Positions 22,305 through 39,885 of a DNA stretch of 58,554 nt are shown here, in pieces. The stretch spans positions 1 through 58,554 of the forward strand of contig NZ_FZPH01000031.1 of the NCBI RefSeq assembly GCF_900188485.1, written 5' to 3'. The first letter of the stretch is position 1; each line of letters starts with the position of its first letter. The position numbers and the translations under genes are program-made. This DNA is from Asanoa hainanensis (GTDB taxonomy: Bacteria > Actinomycetota > Actinomycetes > Mycobacteriales > Micromonosporaceae). The notes under the pieces are model-generated. The model searched no databases. It worked only from the letters and a program-made list of their open reading frames with translations, and was not told the origin of the DNA.

Positions 22305-22584
22305 TGGAGCTGCGCACCTCCCGGCTGCTGCTGCGGGAGCTCACCGACGCCGACCACGCGGCGGTCCACCGATATGCCAGCGACCCCGACGTGACCCGGT
22401 TCATGGCATGGGGACCGAACAGCGTGGAGGAGACCGTCGCCTTCCTCGCCGATGCCCGGCGGGTTCCGCCCACGTCCTGCAGAAGATCGGCATGCGGTGC
22501 GAGGGCCACCTGCGCGACCACCTGCGGATCCGCGGGCAATGGCGGGACCGCTTGACCTTCGCCGTCTTCGGTCAGGGTGTGTAG
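22304..22584 (+). pseudogene. GNAT acetyltransferase with an internal out-of-frame deletion
   Basis: The first ~50 codons read MELRTSRLLLRELTDADHAA and then FMAWGPNSVEETVAFLADAR, the N-terminus of a RimJ/RimL-type acetyltransferase. The natural C-terminus (HVLQKIGMRCEGHLRDHLRI and GQWRDRLTFAV) is in a different frame and ends at TAG 22584. The acetyl-CoA-binding middle (V-type motif, R/Q-x-x-G-x-G/A), about 80-90 residues in the family, is absent. The original open frame runs on to 22555 in nonsense. It is therefore non-functional unless the window carries an assembly error. Confidence 0.8.
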
Positions 22585-23666
22585 GCCAGCAGTTTGAGGT
22601 GCTCGACCGCAGCCGGTTCGGGCACCTCTGCCTTGACCCTGAAGTCCGGGCCGAGCAACGTCAGTTTGCCCGCCGTCCGCACGAGGATGTCGCCGTTGGG
22701 CTGGAACAGGATCGCGGTGACGTCGCCCCTGACCGGGAGGCCGACGTTCTCGCCCGTCCGCACGTCGATGACCGTGTCAGCGATCAGGTCCCGGGCGATG
22801 TCCGAGTCCTCCTCCTGATCCTTGCGCTGCCATACGGAGATCAGACCACCGTCCGCGGAGATGCTGTACGGGTCGCAACTGCGCCGTCGCCCGTAGTTCG
22901 CCTGCGGCTCGCCACTGCCGAAGCCAGGAACCACACGCGCGTTGCCCCCGTCGGGATCGGCAGTCGCAAGGTCACAGTCGCCCGTGGCGTACCCGATGTG
23001 TCGCCCGTCGGCCGACCACAGAAAGTGGATCGCCGACCGCTGGTCCACCAGCGGGGTGAAACGGCCGGTCGCGATCGTGACGATGCCCTTGGTGACCTCC
23101 CCATCAGGGCCCTTCGCCAGCAGCAGCTGCTCGGAGTCCGGCGACCATGCCGGCTCGTATCCGTAGTACTTGGCACCCTGGAACACCGTCCGGCGGTTCC
23201 GACCGTCGCGGTCGGTCACGACCACCTTCCCGCCCTTGTCGACGAAGGCGACGCGCGCACCGTCCGGCGACACACTCGCCGCGTACGCGTCCTTCACCAA
23301 CACCGTGTCCACACCGGACTTCGTGACCCTGACCAGCCGCTCGCTGTCGGAGTAGTACAGCCAACCGGGCAACCCGGTAATCGAGCTCTGCACCGGCGGG
23401 GCGGCCGTGGGGGAAGGCGAACCGGTAACGGAGGGCAGTGCGGTCGGCATGGCCGCCGGCTCGGGCTCGCTGCGCCCCGGCACGCCCAGTTGCCAGGCGA
23501 GCCCGCCTGCCAGCACCAGCGCGCAGGCCGCGACCGAGCCGCTGACGAAAGCCCGGTTGCGACCGATCCGCTTCGAGCGGGCCAACGACCGGTCGACGAA
23601 GTCCACCGGCTTCGCCTGGTCGCCGATTTCGGTCAGGCTGTTCCGCAGCAGGTCGTCGTCATTCAT
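22572..23666 (-). CDS. Membrane-anchored TolB-like beta-propeller protein linked to a SigE-type sigma factor
   Basis: 364 aa. A cytoplasmic N-terminus (MNDDDLLRNSLTEIGDQAKP) and one transmembrane helix (SGSVAACALVLAGGLAWQLG, about residues 42-61) precede an extracytoplasmic TolB/WD40-like propeller with SVSPDGARVAFVDKGGKV, YEPAWSPDSEQLLLA and WSADGRHIGYATG. The layout (sigma gene upstream with ATGA overlap, cytosolic head, one TM, periplasmic sensor) suggests an anti-sigma or signal-sensing partner. The head has no HxxxCxxC zinc motif. Start ATG 23666 is set by the overlap. Confidence 0.8.
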   Translation of the reverse strand: MNDDDLLRNSLTEIGDQAKPVDFVDRSLARSKRIGRNRAFVSGSVAACALVLAGGLAWQLGVPGRSEPEPAAMPTALPSVTGSPSPTAAPPVQSSITGLPGWLYYSDSERLVRVTKSGVDTVLVKDAYAASVSPDGARVAFVDKGGKVVVTDRDGRNRRTVFQGAKYYGYEPAWSPDSEQLLLAKGPDGEVTKGIVTIATGRFTPLVDQRSAIHFLWSADGRHIGYATGDCDLATADPDGGNARVVPGFGSGEPQANYGRRRSCDPYSISADGGLISVWQRKDQEEDSDIARDLIADTVIDVRTGENVGLPVRGDVTAILFQPNGDILVRTAGKLTLLGPDFRVKAEVPEPAAVEHLKLLAYTP

Positions 23667-24115
23667 CTTCCGGTCCCTTCCATGGTCCGGAATTGCCGCA
23701 GCTCCGGCACGAGCTTGCGCGGGTGCTCGAGCGCCCGCGCGGTCTGCGTCTTGACGGTGCTGACCGATACGCCGAGGAGATCGGCGGCCTCGGACTCCGT
23801 GTGGTCCTCGAAGTAGCGCAACACCACGACCGCGCGCTGCCGCGGGCTGAGCGACCGCAGCGCCTGCTCAACGGTCATCCGGCGCGTGATCGAGTCGGTG
23901 TCGTCGTGACCATGCCGGTCGACCGGCTCGGGGAGGTCGCCGCTGAGCACCTCTGCCGTCCTGCGTCGCCGCCACATGGAGACCTGTTGGTGATACATGA
24001 CCCGGCGGGCGTACGCCTCGGCGTTGCCGACTTCGTGGAGCCGGGACCAGGCCCGGTGCGTGCGCGCCAGGGCTTCCTGCACCAGGTCCTCGGCCAGGTG
24101 CTGGTCTCCGTCCAC
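23663..24115 (-). pseudogene. SigE-type ECF sigma factor lacking its N-terminus
   Basis: 150 codons remain: DQHLAEDLVQEALARTHRAW (end of region 2), SMWRRRRTAE, then LRSLSPRQRAVVVLRYFEDH and SEAADLLGVSVSTVKTQTAR (region 4, -35 recognition). The first ~30-40 residues, including the start codon and early region 2, are missing. Just upstream the sequence is that of a TolB-like gene in another frame. GTG 24115 could in principle start a shortened protein, but core RNA-polymerase contacts would be damaged. The stop overlaps the downstream TolB-like gene (ATGA). Confidence 0.75.
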
Positions 24116-24678
24116 AGAGAGTGGAGCGCGGGCCGCTGATCCGCGAACGCGGTGAACTTTCCCGTCGCGACCGTCAGGACGCCCGTTGTCCGCTGCCCCG
24201 GGCTCCGGTACTTCGCGACCAGCAGGCGCTTCGAATCCGGGGACCACGCGGGCTCGAACCCGTCGCGTTCGGCACCGCGAAACACCGTCCGACGATTCCG
24301 ACCGTCTCGGTCGCTGACGATCACGTTCCCGCTCTCGCCACCGCTCTCGTCGACGAAAGCGATACGCGCACCATCCGGCGACACATTCGCCGTGAACGCG
24401 CCGTTCGGCAATACCGTCTTCACACCCGAGCCGGTAAGCCGAACGAGCCGATCGTGGTCGCGGTAGTACAGGCGGCCGGGGATCGAGGTGGCCGGTGACG
24501 GCTTGACCGGCGGCTCAGCCGGTGTGGGTGCCGCCGAAGTCGGAGACGGGACGGACGGCGCCGAGGCCAACGGTCGACTGCCGGCGGGCTTCGGGTTGGC
24601 CTCACAGGCGACGGTGAGCAGCACGGCAGTGGCGAGAAGGGCCCAGCGGGCAACGGTCCGCGACGAGATCGCGTTCAT
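24113..24678 (-). pseudogene. Second TolB-like lipoprotein, truncated by a junction into the sigma gene
   Basis: Starts MNAISSRTVARWALLATAVL with lipobox LTVAC (Cys25), so it would be a lipoprotein. The propeller follows that of the gene at 22572 closely: NVSPDGARIAFVDESGGESG, RDGRNRRTVFRGAERDGFEP, ATGKFTAFADQRPALHSLW. At W189 (about 24112) the homology stops and the sigma-factor sequence begins in another frame; the open frame runs on to 23875 without meaning. About half of the propeller is lost. Confidence 0.75.
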
Positions 24679-28352: not shown

Positions 28353-29759
28353 ATGACGGGCGACCAGAACGGCCGTCACCGCGCGCCCGACGCCAACGAT
28401 GCGACCGCGGTCATCCCCCGGGTGATCGAGCGGACGACCGCTGACGCGGTGCCGGCGCGTCCGGCGCCGACCGCACGGCCGCACCCCCGACCACTGGAAG
28501 CACCGGCCGACTCCCGGACTCCGGTGCGCGACGTCCCGGTGACCCCAGGCCCGACGCTGCGGCCGCCCGCGCCCGAGGCCAGCCCGGACACGACAGCGGT
28601 GATCCCGAGGATCACGGCACCGGCCGCAAAGACATCACCGCCGTCGCCGCCGCCCGCGGCCACGGCACCGCCCGTGGTGCCGGCGCCGACCGCGAAGACG
28701 GCGGTCACGGTCCCGGCCTCACCGGCTGCCGATGCGACCGCGGTGATCCCCAAGGTCACTGTGGTCCCGGCGCCGGTGCCGGCGCCGGCACCGAAGCCCG
28801 CGCCGGTCACGTCGCCCGACGCGACCGCGGTAATCCCGAAGGTGATCGACGAGACGACCGTCATTCCACGGGTGCCGAGCGCGCAGACGCTGGCCACCCA
28901 GTCACCCGACCTGACCACCGTGATGGGTGCGGTGCCGCCGGCGCCGGACAAGCCGGACCCGGCCGACCTGCCCGCCCCGCCGCCGGCGCCGCGCCGCGGC
29001 GAGAAGGTCGTGCGCCTGCGGGCCGAGAACGTCGGCGACGACTACAAGAGCGTCTACTCCGAGCTCACCCGGCCGACGGTCTGGTCCCGCATCCGGTCCG
29101 GCATCCGGGTCGGCGGCGAACTGATGATCACCTTCGGCCTGGTGGTGCTGCTCTTCGCGGCGTACGAGGTCTGGGGTGTCGGTGTCGTCCAGGGCGGCAA
29201 GCAGGACGCGCTGGCCGGCGCGCTCGAACAGCAGTGGGCCAACGAGCCCGGCGACGACCCCACGGTCGGCCCGACGCCCCCCGCCGGCCAGGGTGGCCTG
29301 GGCTCCAAGATCCATGGCATCGCGAAGCTCTACATCCCGGCGCTCGGCCAGCAGTGGGTGGTCGTCGACGGGGTCACCCAGGCCGACATCCGCTACGCGC
29401 CCGGCCACTACCCGGACACCGCACTGCCGGGCCAGATCGGCAACTTCTCCGTCGCGGGCCACCGCAACCGGGCGACCTTCTGGCGGCTCGACGAGCTCGA
29501 CAACGGCGATTCCATCGTCGTCGAGGACAAGAAGAACTGGTACATCTACCACGTCGTGAAGACCCGGATCGTCAAGCCGACCCAGGTCGAGGTGGTCGCG
29601 CCGGTCCCAATGCTGCCGGGCTCGAAGCCGACGAAGGCGATGGTCACGCTGACCACCTGCAACCCGAAGTTCGACAACTACCAGCGCCTGATCGTGCACG
29701 GCGAGCTGGTGCGCACCCAGCCGAAGTCGCAGGGCGACCCGGCCGAGCTGGGAGGCTGA
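28353..29759 (+). CDS. Class E sortase with a long repeat-rich cytoplasmic tail
   Basis: 468 aa. The C-terminal ~190 residues are the sortase domain with His370 (SVAGHRNR), Cys436 ([10 protein letters not shown]) and Arg445 (NYQRLIV). One membrane helix at about 256-279 ([20 protein letters not shown]). Class E sortases anchor LAxTG proteins such as chaplins in actinomycetes. The N-terminal ~250 residues are Pro/Ala-rich, with four copies of (D)(A/T)TAVIP(R/K)(V/I) at about 15-25, 79-88, 127-136 and 156-165, plus degenerate copies at 166-174 and 186-194. No such repeats are needed for catalysis. Location next to the trpG-pknB cluster matches srtE genes in Streptomyces. Confidence 0.93.
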
Positions 29760-30738: not shown

Positions 30739-32556
30739 TTAGTTCTTGTGCGCCCGGTCCTCGCCGATGATCGGCTTGCCGCCGCCGATGCCGGGCAGGA
30801 TGTCGCCGATCCCGCCGTTGTTGCCGCCGGCCGGCGGTGAGCTCGGGTCACCCGACGGCGGGTCGTCGGGCTCCTCGAACACCGTAACGGTGATCGTCAC
30901 CGTGTCCTTGAGCTTGGCTTCCTGGTCGGCATTGGGATCCTGGTCGATCACCTTGTCGGCCAGGTTCTCGCTCTGGACGGGCTGGCCTTCCTCGACGTCG
31001 ACCTTGAAGCCAGCCTGTTCCAGCAGAGCCTCGGCGACCTCGCGGGACTTGCCGACCACGTTCGGCACCTTCTTGAGCTGGCCGTTGGAGATCTCGACCT
31101 TGATCTTGGTGCCGGGCTTGACCGAGGTGCCGGCCTTGTCGACCCTGATGACCGTGTTCTCCGGCTGAGAGCTGTTGACCTCGTCGAAGTCCGGCGTGAG
31201 CTTGCGGGTCTCGAACTCGCGCTCGACGTCGGCCTTGGTCCGGCCCTTGAGGTCGGGCACCTCCACCGTGCCAGGACCCGCGCAGACGGTCAGCGTCACC
31301 GTGCTGTTCTTCTCGACCTTCTCACCGCCCGACGGGTTCTGCTTCGTGACGGTGTTCTCCGCGCACTCGGGATCTTCCTGCCGCGCGGTCTCGACGACGA
31401 AGCCGTCGGCCTGAAGCGCCTGCGTGGCGGCGGCGACCGGCTGGCCGAGCACCGAGGCCACCTCGACCTTCTCGCCCCGGGCGTTCTGCACCAGCAGGCC
31501 GGCGACCAGCGCGATCACGGCGAGCACGCCGAGCACGCTCAGCACGCCCAGCACCCAGTTGGAGCGCTTGCGCCGCTGCGCGTCGCCGACCGCGGCGGCC
31601 GGGATCGTGCGCGTCGCCGCGCCCTGCGGCCCGCGGACCACGGCCGTGGCGGCGTTGGCCGCGCCCATCGGCATGGTCTCCTGGTCACGCATCACCGGAG
31701 TGGCCATGACCGGCCGGCCGGTGGCCGCACGGAGCACGTCGGCCCGCATCTCGCCGGCGCTCTGGTAGCGGTTGAGCGGGTTCTTGGACAGCGCCTTGAG
31801 CACGATCGCGTCGATCGGCGGCGTCACGTCGCGGTTGATCTCGCTCGGCGCCCGCGGGTCTTCCCGCACGTGTTGGTAGGCCACGCTGACCGGGCTGTCG
31901 CCAACGAACGGCGGGTGCCCGCACAGGAGCTCGAACAGCACGCAGCCGGCCGCGTAGACGTCGGAACGGGCGTCGACCGCCTCACCCCGGGCCTGCTCCG
32001 GCGACAGATATTGTGCCGTGCCGATCACCGCGCTGGTCTGCGTCATGGTGGTCGCGCCGCTGGCCAGGGCCCGGGCGATGCCGAAGTCCATGACCTTGAC
32101 CTGGCCGTTCTGCGTGAGCATCACGTTGCCGGGCTTGATGTCGCGGTGGATGATGCCGTGCCGGTGGCTGAACTCCAGCGCGGCGCAGATGTCGGCGGTG
32201 ATCTCCAGAGCCCGGCGCGGCTGCAACCGGCCCTCGGCGGCCAGCACCTCCTTGAGGGTGCGGCCGTTGACGAACTCCATGACGATGAACGGCAGCGTCT
32301 CGCCCGTCGGGGCGATCTCCTCGCCGGTGTCGTAGACGGCGACGATGGCCGGGTGGTTGAGCGAGGCGGCGTTCTGCGCCTCCCGCCGGAACCGCATCTG
32401 GAACGTCGCGTCGCGGGCGAGGTCGGTGCGGAGCATCTTGATCGCGACGTCCCGGCCGAGCCGGAGGTCACGGCCACGGTGCACCTCGGCCATGCCGCCG
32501 TATCCGAGCAGCTCGCCGACCTGATACCTGCCACCCAGCAGGCGGGCCTGCGTCAT
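30739..32556 (-). CDS. pknB: PASTA-domain Ser/Thr protein kinase PknB
   Basis: 605 aa. Kinase domain 1-280: Lys40 (VAIKML), HRD 137-139 (IIHRDIKPGN), DFG 157-159, activation loop TTMTQTSAVIGT. Juxtamembrane ~285-330, TM 335-357 (LGVLSVLGVLAVIALVAGLL), then three or four PASTA repeats (EVASVLGQPVAAATQALQAD, VEVPDLKGRTKADVEREFET, KKVPNVVGKSREVAEALLEQ) and a Gly/Pro-rich end. It senses muropeptides or lipid II outside and phosphorylates wall-synthesis and division proteins. The juxtamembrane segment contains TAVV and TRTI (TxxV/I), as in FHA ligands. ATGA overlap with pknA. Confidence 0.97.
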   Translation of the reverse strand: MTQARLLGGRYQVGELLGYGGMAEVHRGRDLRLGRDVAIKMLRTDLARDATFQMRFRREAQNAASLNHPAIVAVYDTGEEIAPTGETLPFIVMEFVNGRTLKEVLAAEGRLQPRRALEITADICAALEFSHRHGIIHRDIKPGNVMLTQNGQVKVMDFGIARALASGATTMTQTSAVIGTAQYLSPEQARGEAVDARSDVYAAGCVLFELLCGHPPFVGDSPVSVAYQHVREDPRAPSEINRDVTPPIDAIVLKALSKNPLNRYQSAGEMRADVLRAATGRPVMATPVMRDQETMPMGAANAATAVVRGPQGAATRTIPAAAVGDAQRRKRSNWVLGVLSVLGVLAVIALVAGLLVQNARGEKVEVASVLGQPVAAATQALQADGFVVETARQEDPECAENTVTKQNPSGGEKVEKNSTVTLTVCAGPGTVEVPDLKGRTKADVEREFETRKLTPDFDEVNSSQPENTVIRVDKAGTSVKPGTKIKVEISNGQLKKVPNVVGKSREVAEALLEQAGFKVDVEEGQPVQSENLADKVIDQDPNADQEAKLKDTVTITVTVFEEPDDPPSGDPSSPPAGGNNGGIGDILPGIGGGKPIIGEDRAHKN

Positions 32557-33923
32557 CTCGTCAACATTCCTTCGCTTGTCATCCCGATGTGGAGGATTCG
32601 CTCTCCAAGACGGTACGGGGCATTTGCCGCCTCGGTTCCACCGGTCGGTAGATGAAGCGGGGTCGTTACCTTCCCCGCGGGAGCCATCGGGGGGGCGCCG
32701 TTGTTTTCCGTGCTGTTCTTTTGACTGAGCTGGTAGGAGATGACCCCGGCACAGATCAGCACCAACGCGCCGAGTATCACCGCCAACACGATCAGTAACC
32801 GCCGCCCTCCGCTGCTTGGCTCGGCGGCAGAGGGCACCGACGCGTAACCGTATCCTGCGGAAGCGGGAGGCCGGTTTGCCGGCACGCTCGGGTAGCCACC
32901 GCGCGCTGCCGGACTACTCACCACGGGTGACGAAGGTCGATGCGGCGGCGGGGCCGGGTTGCCACGCGGCGGGGTCGGCTTGACCGGGCCCGGCACGGTG
33001 GCCCGCCCGCTCGGTGCCAGCGCGGGCGAGGCGGGCGCGCCCGAGATCGGCCCGGCGGTCGGCGGGGCGGCCGGGGTGACGGGGCGGTGTGGCTGGGCCG
33101 GCGCCGCCAGGGTCGTCGCGGCCTGCCGGGACACGGCCGAGAACGCCGAGGCGGTGGGCCAGCGGGCGGTCGGGTCCTTGGCCATCGCGCGGTCGACGAT
33201 CGACCGGATCGCTGGCGGGATGTCACCCGGCAACGGGCGGGCGGTCTCCCGGACGTGCTTCATGGCGATCTCGAGCGGGTTGTCGCCCTCGAACGGGCGA
33301 CGCCCGGACAGGCACTGGTAGGCGACCACGCCCAGGGCGTACACGTCGGAGGACGGGGTGGCGATCGCACCCGCCGCCTGCTCCGGCGAGATGTAGGAGG
33401 CGGTGCCGAGCACCGAGCCGGCCGCGGTGAGCTGGCCGACGATCGCCGAGCGGGCGATGCCGAAGTCGGTCAGGACCAGCGTGCCGTTCGGTCGTACGAG
33501 CAGGTTGCCGGGCTTGACGTCGCGGTGGACGATGCCCTTCTCGTGCGCCGCCTGCAGTGCGTCGGCCGCCTGGGCGACCAGCGCCATCGTGCGGGCCGGG
33601 GTCAGCCGGCCGACCCGGCTCAGCGTGCGGGACAGCGCGTCGCCCTCGACATATTCCATGACCAGGAAGGCGATCTGCTGGTCGCTGCCGTAGTCGTAGA
33701 CGTCGACGACGCCCGGGTGGTTGATCGTCGCCATCGTGCGGGCCTCGCCCCGGAACCGCTCGGCGAAGCCCGGCTCGTCGAGCAGGGCGGGCAGCAGGAT
33801 CTTGACCGCGACCGTGCGGCCGAGCACCTCGTCGGTGCCGCGCCAGACGTCGCCCATGCCGCCGCCGGCGATGCGCTCGTCGAGGCGGTACCGGCCGCCG
33901 AGCATGACCCCGGGACTGATCAC
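32553..33923 (-). CDS. pknA: Ser/Thr protein kinase PknA
   Basis: 456 aa. Kinase domain: Gly loop IAGGGMGDVWRG, Lys41, HRD 133-135 (VHRDVKPGNL), DFG 153-155, SPEQAAG. A Pro/Ala-rich linker of about 100 residues follows (RPVTPAAPPTAGPIS), then one TM (RRLLIVLAVILGALVLICAG) and a short outside tail without PASTA domains. This is the PknA layout. It is transcribed with pbpA, rodA, pstP and fhaB upstream and pknB downstream, and overlaps pknB by 4 nt. Confidence 0.95.
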   Translation of the reverse strand: MISPGVMLGGRYRLDERIAGGGMGDVWRGTDEVLGRTVAVKILLPALLDEPGFAERFRGEARTMATINHPGVVDVYDYGSDQQIAFLVMEYVEGDALSRTLSRVGRLTPARTMALVAQAADALQAAHEKGIVHRDVKPGNLLVRPNGTLVLTDFGIARSAIVGQLTAAGSVLGTASYISPEQAAGAIATPSSDVYALGVVAYQCLSGRRPFEGDNPLEIAMKHVRETARPLPGDIPPAIRSIVDRAMAKDPTARWPTASAFSAVSRQAATTLAAPAQPHRPVTPAAPPTAGPISGAPASPALAPSGRATVPGPVKPTPPRGNPAPPPHRPSSPVVSSPAARGGYPSVPANRPPASAGYGYASVPSAAEPSSGGRRLLIVLAVILGALVLICAGVISYQLSQKNSTENNGAPPMAPAGKVTTPLHLPTGGTEAANAPYRLGERILHIGMTSEGMLTR

Positions 33924-36924: not shown

Positions 36925-38370
36925 TCAGTTCGACGGCCGGCAGTCCGCCGGATCGATGACCGGTGGGACGGTGTCGGTCGGCGTCCCGTCAGGCACCGCG
37001 GTGGCTGAGCCGATGCTGCTCGGCGGCGTGCTCGTCGGAGCCGTCGCGCCGACCGTCGGGCTGGCCGGCGGCACCGTCGGCGTGTTCAGCTGCTCACCCG
37101 CGGTGTTCGCGGGCGGGCAGGCCGGCTTGAGGTTGGGGTTGGTCGGGTCGTCGGTCGTCAGCTCCGCCAGCCGGCGCTGCGCGTCGGCTTCGCTGTTGGC
37201 CTGGATGCCCTGCTTGACCCGCTCCTGCGCGACCGAGGTGAGCTCGTCGAGGCTGGTGGCGCTCGTCGACTGCACGCTCGACAGGTCGACGCCCGCGATC
37301 TGGCCCGGCACGCCGCGGAACACGGCGAGCTGGCCCTCCTCGGTGGCACCGACGTAGAACTGCTGCTGGGTGACCCGCCAGCCGGCCCAGAGGCCGCCGC
37401 CGAGGATGATCAGCAGCACGCCGAGCAGCACCGCCGTGCGCACCGGCCGCCGGCGACGCCGTTCGCCGTCGTCTTCGTGTGCGCCGCCGCGACCGTTGGC
37501 CTCGGCGGGCAGGTTCTGGTCGGGCACCGCCGCGCGGGGCGCGGAGAGGGCCGCCGAGGCGCGCGCGGCGGGCGTGTCGGCGCCGGCCGAGGTCGCGTTG
37601 CCCCGGTCGCGGGCCGCCGCACCGCCGACGATCGGCGCCTGCTCGACGATGTCCTGGTCGGTCGCGTCCGCGACGACCACGGTGATGTTGTCGGGGCCAC
37701 CGCCGCGCAGCGCGAGCGCGACCAGCCGTTCGACGCACTGCTGCGGGTCGACGAAGTCGCGCAACGACTCGGCGATCGTCTCGGCGCTGACCACGCCGGA
37801 GAGCCCGTCGCTGCAGATCAGGTAGCGATCGCCGCGCAGCACCTGCCGGACGGAGTATTCAGGGTCGATGTCGCGGCCGTCGAGCGCGCGGGTGAGCAAC
37901 GACCGCTGCGGGTGGCTGCTCGCCTCCTCGGCGCTGATCCGGCCCTCGTCGACGAGCATCTGAACGTACGTGTCGTCCTTGGTGATCTGCGCGAACTCGC
38001 CGTCGCGGAGCATGTAGGCGCGCGAGTCACCGATGTGCACCATGCCGATCTTGCTGCCCGAGAACAGGATGGCGGTGAGCGTGGTGCCCATGCCCTCGAG
38101 CTGCGGGTTGGCATCGACGGTGTCGCGCAGTTGTTGGTTGGCGGTATCGACAGCCGTGCGCAGCGCGTCGACGAGGGCGTCACCTGGGACGTCCTCGTCG
38201 AGCGGGGCCATGGCTCCGATGACGATGTTGCTCGCGACGTCACCGGCGGCCATGCCGCCCATGCCGTCGGCAACGGCGAGCAGCCGCGGTCCGGCGTAGA
38301 CGGAGTCTTGATTTCCGTCCCGGATCAGACCGCGGTCACTGCGGGCCGCGTAACGCAGTGTCAGTGTCAT
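36925..38370 (-). CDS. pstP: PP2C-type Ser/Thr protein phosphatase PstP
   Basis: 481 aa. PP2C catalytic domain 1-235: RSDRGLIRDGNQDSVYAG, LLAVADGMGGMAAGDVASN, VHIGDSRAYMLRDGE, RYLICSDGLSGVV and GGGPDNITVVVAD, with all metal-binding Asp residues. A basic stretch (DGERRRRRPVRT), one membrane helix (AVLLGVLLIILGGGLWAGW) and an extracytoplasmic Pro/Thr-rich tail follow. It removes phosphates placed by PknA/PknB. Four-nt overlap with fhaB; rodA follows after 4 nt. Confidence 0.97.
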   Translation of the reverse strand: MTLTLRYAARSDRGLIRDGNQDSVYAGPRLLAVADGMGGMAAGDVASNIVIGAMAPLDEDVPGDALVDALRTAVDTANQQLRDTVDANPQLEGMGTTLTAILFSGSKIGMVHIGDSRAYMLRDGEFAQITKDDTYVQMLVDEGRISAEEASSHPQRSLLTRALDGRDIDPEYSVRQVLRGDRYLICSDGLSGVVSAETIAESLRDFVDPQQCVERLVALALRGGGPDNITVVVADATDQDIVEQAPIVGGAAARDRGNATSAGADTPAARASAALSAPRAAVPDQNLPAEANGRGGAHEDDGERRRRRPVRTAVLLGVLLIILGGGLWAGWRVTQQQFYVGATEEGQLAVFRGVPGQIAGVDLSSVQSTSATSLDELTSVAQERVKQGIQANSEADAQRRLAELTTDDPTNPNLKPACPPANTAGEQLNTPTVPPASPTVGATAPTSTPPSSIGSATAVPDGTPTDTVPPVIDPADCRPSN

Positions 38371-38852
38371 GGCCGTAACTCGAGTGAAGTGCGGCCGATA
38401 CGGATCGGCACGCCGAGGGGGACGGGGGTCGGTCCGGTGACCTTAGCGCGATCGAGATACGTCCCGTTCGTCGAGCCCAGGTCTTCCACGAACCACTGCC
38501 CTGACCTGGGAACAAGCCGGGCGTGACGCGCCGACGCGTAATCGTCGGTGATCACCAGTGTCGAGTCCTCGGCGCGGCCGATCGTAATCTGGCCATCACC
38601 GAGCGTGATTCGCGTGCCGGCGAGCTGACCCGCGGTCACCACCAGTTGGTGAGCCGCGCGGCCCCGCTTCACCTTGGCCGGCCGCGTTTGACCGGTCGAC
38701 GCACCCACCCCCCGTGGTGCGGCGACCAGCCTGCTGGATCGGGCCCCGGCGAAGAGGTCACGCCGGATCACACCCACGACTGTGAACACGAAGATCCACA
38801 GCAGAATGAGGAATCCGATCCGGGCGACTTCGACGACGAAATCTCCGGCCAA
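38367..38852 (-). CDS. fhaB: FHA-domain protein FhaB (FipA)
   Basis: 161 aa. An N-terminal membrane anchor (VARIGFLILLWIFVFTVVGV) is followed by a linker and a C-terminal FHA domain (ITIGRAEDSTLVITDDYASA, RHARLVPRSGQWFVEDLGST, NGTYLD). Binds phosphothreonine with hydrophobic or acidic +3 residues. In mycobacteria FipA links FtsZ and FtsQ in a kinase-dependent way. Gene order fhaA-fhaB-pstP is conserved; overlaps pstP by 4 nt. Confidence 0.95.
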   Translation of the reverse strand: MAGDFVVEVARIGFLILLWIFVFTVVGVIRRDLFAGARSSRLVAAPRGVGASTGQTRPAKVKRGRAAHQLVVTAGQLAGTRITLGDGQITIGRAEDSTLVITDDYASARHARLVPRSGQWFVEDLGSTNGTYLDRAKVTGPTPVPLGVPIRIGRTSLELRP

Positions 38853-38856
38853 CGGG

Positions 38857-39633
38857 CTAACCGTCCACGCGGAACGTCAGCGTCGTCGTGCCGAGCTGGA
38901 TCATGTCGCCGGGGTTGAGCGCCACGGCCGAGACGCGCTGGCCGTTGACCATCGTGCCGTTGGTCGAGCCGAGGTCCGTGAGGACGACCTGCGCACCGTC
39001 GAAGTCGAGCCGGGCGTGTCGCCGCGAGATCCCGACGTCGGGGAGGCGCAGGTTGGCCTGGTCGCCCCGGCCGATCACGGTCGAGCCCATCTGCAGCGGG
39101 TACGTCCGGCCATCGCCGGAGACCAGCCGGATGTTGCGCCCGCCCGCGCCGCCACCACCGCCGTGCATCGGGGGCTGCCCGTAGCCCTGGTCGTAGGGCT
39201 GCTGATAGCCGCCCCCGCCACCCTGCTGGTCGTAGCCCTGCTGCACCGGGGCGACGTCGCCGCCGGTGTAGACCTCGGCCGTGACCCGGAACATGCCCGT
39301 GTCGAGGCCGTCGCCACGCTCGATCTCGACGATCACGTCGCCGTAGACCGTCCACGCCTGCTCACCGATGAACTCAGCCTGAGACTGCGCGAGTTCCTGG
39401 GCGAGCGCGGCCGCGTACGGCGCGAGCCGGCTGTGGTCATAGGGAGATAGGTCAATCACGTAGCGGTTCGGCACCAGAGTCCGCCCGCCGGCCAGGATAG
39501 CCTTGTGCGCCTCCGCCTCCCGCTGCATGGCGTTGAGGATCTCCACAGGGTGGACGACCCCCTTGAACACCTTGGCGAAGGCCCCTTCGACCAGGCCTTC
39601 CAAACGCTTCTCGAAGCGTTGCAGCACGCTCAC
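38857..39633 (-). CDS. fhaA: FHA-domain protein FhaA
   Basis: 258 aa. The start is GTG 39633, because it has GAGGAGGAG a few nt upstream and gives the family N-terminus VSVLQRFEKRLEGLVEGAF; an ATG 27 nt further up would add MASEPEEEP. Residues 1-125 form the FhaA N-terminal (DUF3662) domain, then a Tyr/Gly/Gln-rich linker (QQGYDQQGGGGGYQQPYDQG) and a C-terminal FHA domain (VIGRGDQANLRLPDVGISRR, HARLDFDG, LTDLGSTNGTMVNG). In mycobacteria FhaA binds phospho-MviN/CwlM and tunes lipid II flipping and wall synthesis. First gene of the operon. Confidence 0.95.
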   Translation of the reverse strand: MSVLQRFEKRLEGLVEGAFAKVFKGVVHPVEILNAMQREAEAHKAILAGGRTLVPNRYVIDLSPYDHSRLAPYAAALAQELAQSQAEFIGEQAWTVYGDVIVEIERGDGLDTGMFRVTAEVYTGGDVAPVQQGYDQQGGGGGYQQPYDQGYGQPPMHGGGGGAGGRNIRLVSGDGRTYPLQMGSTVIGRGDQANLRLPDVGISRRHARLDFDGAQVVLTDLGSTNGTMVNGQRVSAVALNPGDMIQLGTTTLTFRVDG

Positions 39634-39885
39634 CGGCTCCTCCTCGGGTTCCGAGGCCATGATGGTATCCGGCCGGGGCACATGCAGTCCGCATGGCGAC
39701 CGACCGACTGTCAGCGCCGGTCTCCGTGGAGCGCCGTGGGAGCGCTGCCGCGCGTGGCGTCTGGGGAGACCGAGCCCGCCACCGGAGTGGCGGGCAACGC
39801 CGTGTTAGTCTTCCCAGGCGCCGCGAGCGGCAACCGCCCACGGCCACCGGCATGGATAGCGTAATATGTGCCGGCAGCTGTTCCC

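Follow-up and report, generated by a model that had tools for sequence, protein, structure and literature searches.

The class E sortase gene srtE of Asanoa hainanensis raises the question of what the long N-terminal tail of its product does. The window analyzed here (the whole stretch of 58,554 nucleotides) encodes this sortase together with Ser/Thr kinases and FHA-domain proteins. A sequence-only reading had proposed that a threonine motif repeated in the tail is phosphorylated at many sites and recruits FHA proteins, tying surface-protein anchoring to kinase signaling.

The srtE product scores 226.5 bits against the NCBIfam class E sortase profile NF033747 (cut-off 160) and carries a Pfam Sortase domain (PF04203), which together place it in class E. 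The catalytic His and Cys (H135 and C201 in the numbering of the first row of alignment A1) are invariant among 18 sequences, and both are present in the window's sortase, within AGHR and TLTTC. The protein has only one hydrophobic segment, which lies between the tail and the catalytic domain (Table 1) and is immediately preceded by an Arg-rich stretch of 12 residues. Because the catalytic domain must be outside the cell, and because this Arg-rich stretch comes before the helix, the tail is presumably on the cytoplasmic side, as in ordinary sortase topology. The juxtamembrane block, which contains RRGEKVV, is strongly conserved in the family and holds further conserved Ser and Thr residues.

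Table 1. Features of the sortase gene, its product and the neighboring kinase/FHA cluster, in positions of the window
Feature	Position	Strand	Basis
Class E sortase gene srtE (468 aa)	28353..29759	+	ORF; NCBIfam and Pfam profiles
N-terminal Pro/Ala-rich tail, about residues 1-257, putatively cytoplasmic	28353..29123	+	Sequence; presumed topology
Motif 1, DATAVIPRV, Thr18	28398..28424	+	
Motif 2, DTTAVIPRI, Thr81	28587..28613	+	
Motif 3, DATAVIPKV, Thr129	28731..28757	+	
Motif 4, DATAVIPKV, Thr158	28818..28844	+	
Motif 5, DETTVIPRV, Thr168	28848..28874	+	
Motif 6 (variant), DLTTVMGAV, Thr188	28908..28934	+	
Conserved juxtamembrane block, 29 residues	28992..29078	+	Alignment of relatives
Single hydrophobic (membrane) segment, about aa 258-279	29124..29189	+	Hydropathy
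Sortase catalytic domain, aa 326-453	29328..29711	+	PF04203; matched to 5cuw SrtE1
PknB-type PASTA kinase, candidate writer	30739..32556	-	Pfam
Second Ser/Thr kinase, candidate writer	32553..33923	-	Pfam
PP2C phosphatase (PstP-type), candidate eraser	36925..38370	-	Pfam
FHA-domain protein (FhaB-type), candidate reader	38367..38852	-	Pfam
FhaA_N+FHA protein (FhaA-type), candidate reader	38857..39681	-	Pfam; loop alignment

Repeated TAVIP-like motifs are indeed present in the tail, although the count of four good and two degenerate copies given earlier is better stated as five good copies and one variant. The five have the form DxT(A/T)VIP(R/K)(V/I), with TAVIP at T18, T81, T129 and T158 and TTVIP at T168. 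Thr18 and Pro22 of motif 1 are nearly invariant among 16 aligned relatives. The T-phi-phi-G-phi-P form, to which motif 6 belongs, is located 63-75 residues from the helix where it is present.

A match to the srtE protein was found in 58 of 61 genomes, the organism's own included. Tails were taken by phmmer extraction, with start codons set by rule, such that some tails may begin wrongly. Those shorter than 30 aa were left out of the counts, which leaves 52 of 59 tails in a set of relatives and 58 of 79 in a set of named loci (79 tails from 80 loci, with L168 missed). The pattern T.[VILMF][VILM][PG].[VILM] has 94 copies spread over 37 of the 52 relatives' tails, against a shuffled expectation of 0.73 and a maximum of 4 in 200 shuffles, although these relatives share ancestry and are not independent observations. 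In the named set, the same pattern gives 112 copies in 45 of 58 tails, against an expectation of 0.40 and a maximum of 3. These excesses over shuffled sequence confirm that the repeated Thr motif is real, and not a product of chance.

The Thr position of this motif is unusually strict. Ser and Thr are about equally common in the tails as a whole (834 versus 854 in the relatives, 1189 versus 1315 in the named set), and neither Ser, Val, Asp nor Glu occupies the Thr position in either set; Ala, Ile and Pro do so once each among the relatives and never among the named loci. A looser five-residue pattern is less clean (Thr 83, Ser 1, Ala 10 and Val 3, against 3.0, 2.6, 5.9 and 3.1 after shuffling). 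When D at -2, a hydrophobic residue at +2, I/L/M at +3, P at +4 and a hydrophobic residue at +6 are fixed, the central residue is Thr in 64 of 64 cases. With the other positions fixed instead, +3 is I/L/M in 64 of 66 cases, and +2 is freer, with nine residue types. Thus, the tail motifs have both Thr rather than Ser and a selective +3 residue, as FHA sites do. In a sequence logo, D at -2 is enriched 11-fold and I at +3 is enriched 30-fold, and an acid at -1 or -2 accompanies I/L at +3 in 61 of 83 motifs. Conservation also extends to +2, +4 (Pro/Gly) and +6.

The surroundings of the motif are far less constant. Among six genomes of the genus, tails range from 185 to 260 aa, linkers align poorly, and copy number varies. 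A modular D-x-T-x-(V/L/F)-(I/L)-P-x-(V/I) is thus shown to persist while tail length, copy number and linkers drift, so that two expectations of the sequence-only reading, that close relatives carry the motifs and that Thr and the +3 Ile/Leu are kept when the linker is not, are both borne out. In the window's family, at least one motif is found in 35 of 37 genomes, with one to six copies each, and the tails of the two motif-free genomes are 73 and 295 aa long. Another 22 loci of the order yield 15 tails that are long enough, two of them with the motif. When named loci are grouped by hand from database entry titles, the motif is present in 44 of 46 of the Micromonosporaceae, Glycomyces and Phytomonospora type, versus 1 of 33 others. 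The motif was found in none of 14 Actinomadura srtE tails, 13 of which are only 2-25 aa by the start rule. Some lineages, Actinomadura among them, retain srtE but with hardly any tail, so the link is not universal. In a class-level search with an alignment of class E sortases, none of the 11 listed genomes of another family of the same order (f8) gave a match, and 8 further genomes in that search gave none either.

Within its own genome, the motif has few other homes. A DNA pattern for TAVIP, searched on both strands of the whole 8.64-Mb genome, gives 12 matches versus 3 for a reversed-pattern control; four are in srtE, one is in RecA, and seven are in ORFs judged by eye to be non-genes. The pattern DxTx[VL][ILM]P[RK] also gives 12 matches, five of them in srtE; the seven outside compare with six for the control, and those at L078, L079 and L081 are in plausible unrelated genes. 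The pattern [DE]xTx[VL][ILM]Px(phi) gives 10 matches, again five in srtE, against three for the control. Matches outside srtE are thus few and near the control level. Therefore, SrtE is nearly the sole bearer of this precise version of the motif in this genome, and TAVIP is unsupported as a consensus used across the organism's proteome.

A single-site form of the motif occurs in Streptomyces-type sortases, for which we took 12 genomes of one family that have SrtE genes side by side. The catalytic part of one protein, L210, matches S. coelicolor SrtE1 (5cuw) with an E-value of 6e-119. A single site such as LDDETVALRV is present in 11 of the 12 genomes, starting at residue 52 in L210, and no such site was found in the 57-aa tail of L214. 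The layout consists of an acid at most three residues upstream, Thr, Leu at +3 and Arg at +4. Thus, these tails keep the Thr and +3 of the motif, whereas its +2 and +4 are lost.

This site is of interest in view of published work on S. coelicolor SrtE1, in which deletion of residues 15-79, a stretch that includes an acidic patch (D50-E60), abolishes function, but a basic patch (residues 82-90) can be deleted without a null phenotype; an effect of the tail deletion on stability could not be excluded by the authors (PMC5148588). Judging from position and composition, the acidic patch probably corresponds to the Streptomyces-type Thr site. Like the sortase studied here, SrtE1 is a class E enzyme with an N-terminal extension presumed to be cytoplasmic (PMC5148588), and Streptomyces-type homologues carry acid-x-T-x-x-L-R in the stretch deleted there. 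However, there is one site there and up to six here, and the residues at +1, +2 and +4 differ. In discussing the tail, the authors point to no kinase, motif or partner; "kinase" and "phosphorylat" have no occurrences in the main text (PMC5148588). Sporangium formation in Actinoplanes missouriensis requires SrtE; "phosphorylat" is likewise absent from the main text of that report (PMC13251363). The claim that nothing of this kind had been described for class E sortases therefore holds in part. The requirement for the SrtE1 tail was already known (PMC5148588), but searches of a set of openly licensed papers turned up neither the motif nor its spread nor a connection with the kinase cluster.

The cluster itself is as had been proposed, with a PASTA kinase, a second kinase and proteins of the FhaA and FhaB types recognized by Pfam. 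The second kinase (32553-33923) is presumably PknA, a name given from its cluster position. A penicillin-binding protein and FtsW/RodA are also present in the cluster (Pfam). Elsewhere in the window (22572-24678, minus strand), ORF 23875-24678 begins, by eye, like the TolB-like protein at 22572-23666, then extends into the sigma-factor ORF (23663-24247) in a different reading frame; it looks like a truncated copy left by partial duplication.

In the whole genome, only four FHA domains score above the family cut-off. One of them sits in a GarA-like protein whose N-terminus, DVTSTL, has the same D-x-T-x-x-L core. The N-terminal Thr of GarA binds GarA's own FHA domain. GarA and OdhI, whose chains were matched in our comparison, resemble the sortase tail in combining an acid, Thr and a hydrophobic +3 residue near an FHA domain, but there the one or two sites operate inside a single small cytoplasmic protein. 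At L273:889-2022 (+ strand; G000:C27), directly behind a gene read by eye as a Ser/Thr kinase, an FHA domain is joined to a C-terminal end that looks by eye like a LuxR-type DNA-binding region.

Three loops seen in the FHA chains of TB39.8 (PDB), GRG, SRRH and STNGT, are retained in the FhaA-type protein of the window; TB39.8 is also called Rv0020c (PMC4157861, PMC4238996). In M. tuberculosis, the FHA domain of FhaA (Rv0020c) binds CwlM at pT382, which has Phe at +3, and FhaA is a partner of MurJ (PMC6180346). That system shares with the one proposed here a kinase-written pThr, a hydrophobic +3 residue, an FHA reader and a related FhaA. However, its ligands are others and include no sortase, and the ligand site lacks Pro at +4 and repeat copies (PMC6180346). 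The specificity of FHA domains is set by positions +3, +1, -2 and -3 (PMC4157861), and -2 is Asp in many tail copies. Rv0020c responded to pThr and not to pSer sites in one comparison, although binding of pSer as well as pThr is on record for one FHA domain (PMC4238996).

Candidate kinase preferences can be compared in the same way. PknA-dependent sites in M. tuberculosis favor an acid at -1 and from -3 to -6, followed by Leu/Val in the +3 and Lys/Arg in the +4 position, and the motif for PknB was not significant in that study (PMC7164672). The Streptomyces form of the tail site fits the PknA-dependent motif well, and the window form fits it partly (acid at -2, Pro at +4, Lys/Arg at +5).

These observations suggest that the SrtE tail may be a multisite phospho-docking tether, whose candidate pThr residues would be written by PknA/PknB-type kinases and read by FHA domains, a proposal to which we give an even chance. 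Such docking is favored because the cluster holds candidate writers, a candidate eraser and candidate readers, the loops of FhaA are retained, the sites resemble PknA-dependent sites well in Streptomyces-type tails and partly in the window, Rv0020c responded to pThr and not to pSer sites in one comparison, and positions -2 and +3 are among those that set FHA specificity. That neither Ser nor Val stands in for Thr in the seven-residue pattern also fits a phosphothreonine reader. If the proposal is correct, kinases of the PknA/PknB type would phosphorylate the tail Thr residues, and each pThr-x-x-(Ile/Leu) would be recognized by an FHA domain, for which FhaA or FhaB, encoded beside srtE, is the most likely source. 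Several copies of the motif could give avidity or a graded response, and the PP2C phosphatase would erase the mark. Sortases attach their substrates to lipid II; thus, as a more speculative outcome, SrtE might be held where FhaA-centered wall machinery handles lipid II, and protein anchoring might thereby follow wall synthesis as sensed by the kinases. The predicted mechanism would work like known FHA docking sites.

Conservation at +2, +4 and +6 goes beyond the +3 rule, so the reading of the motifs as FHA docking sites is supported in part, by the strict Thr and +3, and leaves room for a partner that does not depend on phosphorylation. DxTxVIPxV could dock as a strand on such a partner, perhaps a protein of cell polarity or division, with Thr kept for its own contacts. 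Pro at +4 and alternating hydrophobic residues would suit binding to a groove or strand. However, exclusion of both Ser and Val is unusual for such a motif unless the hydroxyl and the methyl group both count, as they do for phosphothreonine, and Streptomyces-type tails drop +2 and +4 while retaining Thr and +3. We therefore consider a phosphorylation-independent motif rather unlikely. Alternatively, the Thr residues might be kinase sites without a dedicated reader, at which phosphate alters the charge, stability or membrane contact of the tail. Kinases are encoded beside srtE, and the upstream acid and hydrophobic +3 resemble PknA-dependent sites (PMC7164672), but a charge switch would need neither strict +3, +4 and +6 positions nor sharp exclusion of Ser, which makes this explanation unlikely.

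A neutral low-complexity repeat spread by recent duplication is nearly refuted: duplication does happen, as a tandem run of 10-residue units in the relative L017 illustrates, and this run shows how copies arise, but the core is kept across genera whose linkers do not align, and the codons of copies within one tail have diverged synonymously (103 of 180 comparisons at T, V, I and P codons, where only synonymous change can show because the search pattern fixes these residues). The repeat as fresh DNA duplication was rejected for the same divergence.

Returning to kinase-written, FHA-read docking, other proteins that carry the motif bear on how widely it might apply. One search gave 94 matches, 67 of them outside srtE (control total 26), with some of the 94 being one identical string common to several genomes; another gave 51, of which 47 were outside srtE (control total 34). 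After removal of srtE and one clustered gene, the second search retains 40 matches versus 34 for the control. Single matches near the control level therefore prove little, and only carriers with clustered copies are strong. Of the 114 non-srtE matches, 20 picked by eye were fetched: 12 look ordinary, and eight have a tail-like or low-complexity context (L251, L252, L257, L261, L262, L263, L265 and L266).

The clustered carriers include a BldN-family sigma factor in genome G008 (L251:2343-3476, minus strand; 210.1 bits against TIGR02952, cut-off 206.45), with six T-x-phi-phi-P copies in an N-terminal extension. MFS-thymidylate kinase fusions in two related genera (genomes G028 and G017) carry 12 copies in an N-terminal tail (L261:2059-5928, plus strand) and 7 copies in a C-terminal tail (L266:1-3279, plus strand). 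One or two copies each occur in a Wzz-like protein just under the Pfam cut-off (L252), a histidine kinase with a NIT domain (L262), a small membrane protein (L257) and, at L263 and L265, two unassigned proteins that have hydrophobic segments. Recurrence in unrelated proteins, at either end of the protein, is what a docking motif does.

The PknB linker between the kinase domain and the membrane helix has ATRTIPA in the window (31597-31617, minus strand), a possible second ligand of the same reader. Among 60 such linkers, taken from 93 loci at which PknB was matched, T(R/G)QIPARV was seen by eye in many Micromonospora and is absent from Actinoplanes-type linkers. Thus, the idea that PknB linkers share the srtE motif holds only partly.

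A broader and more tentative possibility is that TxxIP serves the whole family as a phospho-docking code. A single FHA reader (either FhaA or FhaB) might gather SrtE, PknB via the T-x-x-I-P of its linker and, in some genera, the BldN-family sigma factor and the MFS-thymidylate kinase protein into one kinase-controlled assembly at sites of growth or sporulation, with copy number setting the strength of recruitment.

If the docking proposal is true, it would supply a mechanism for the published and unexplained need for the SrtE1 tail in Streptomyces, with the question now narrowed to single Thr residues. Protein anchoring and development would then be tied to the kinase cluster that adjoins srtE here.
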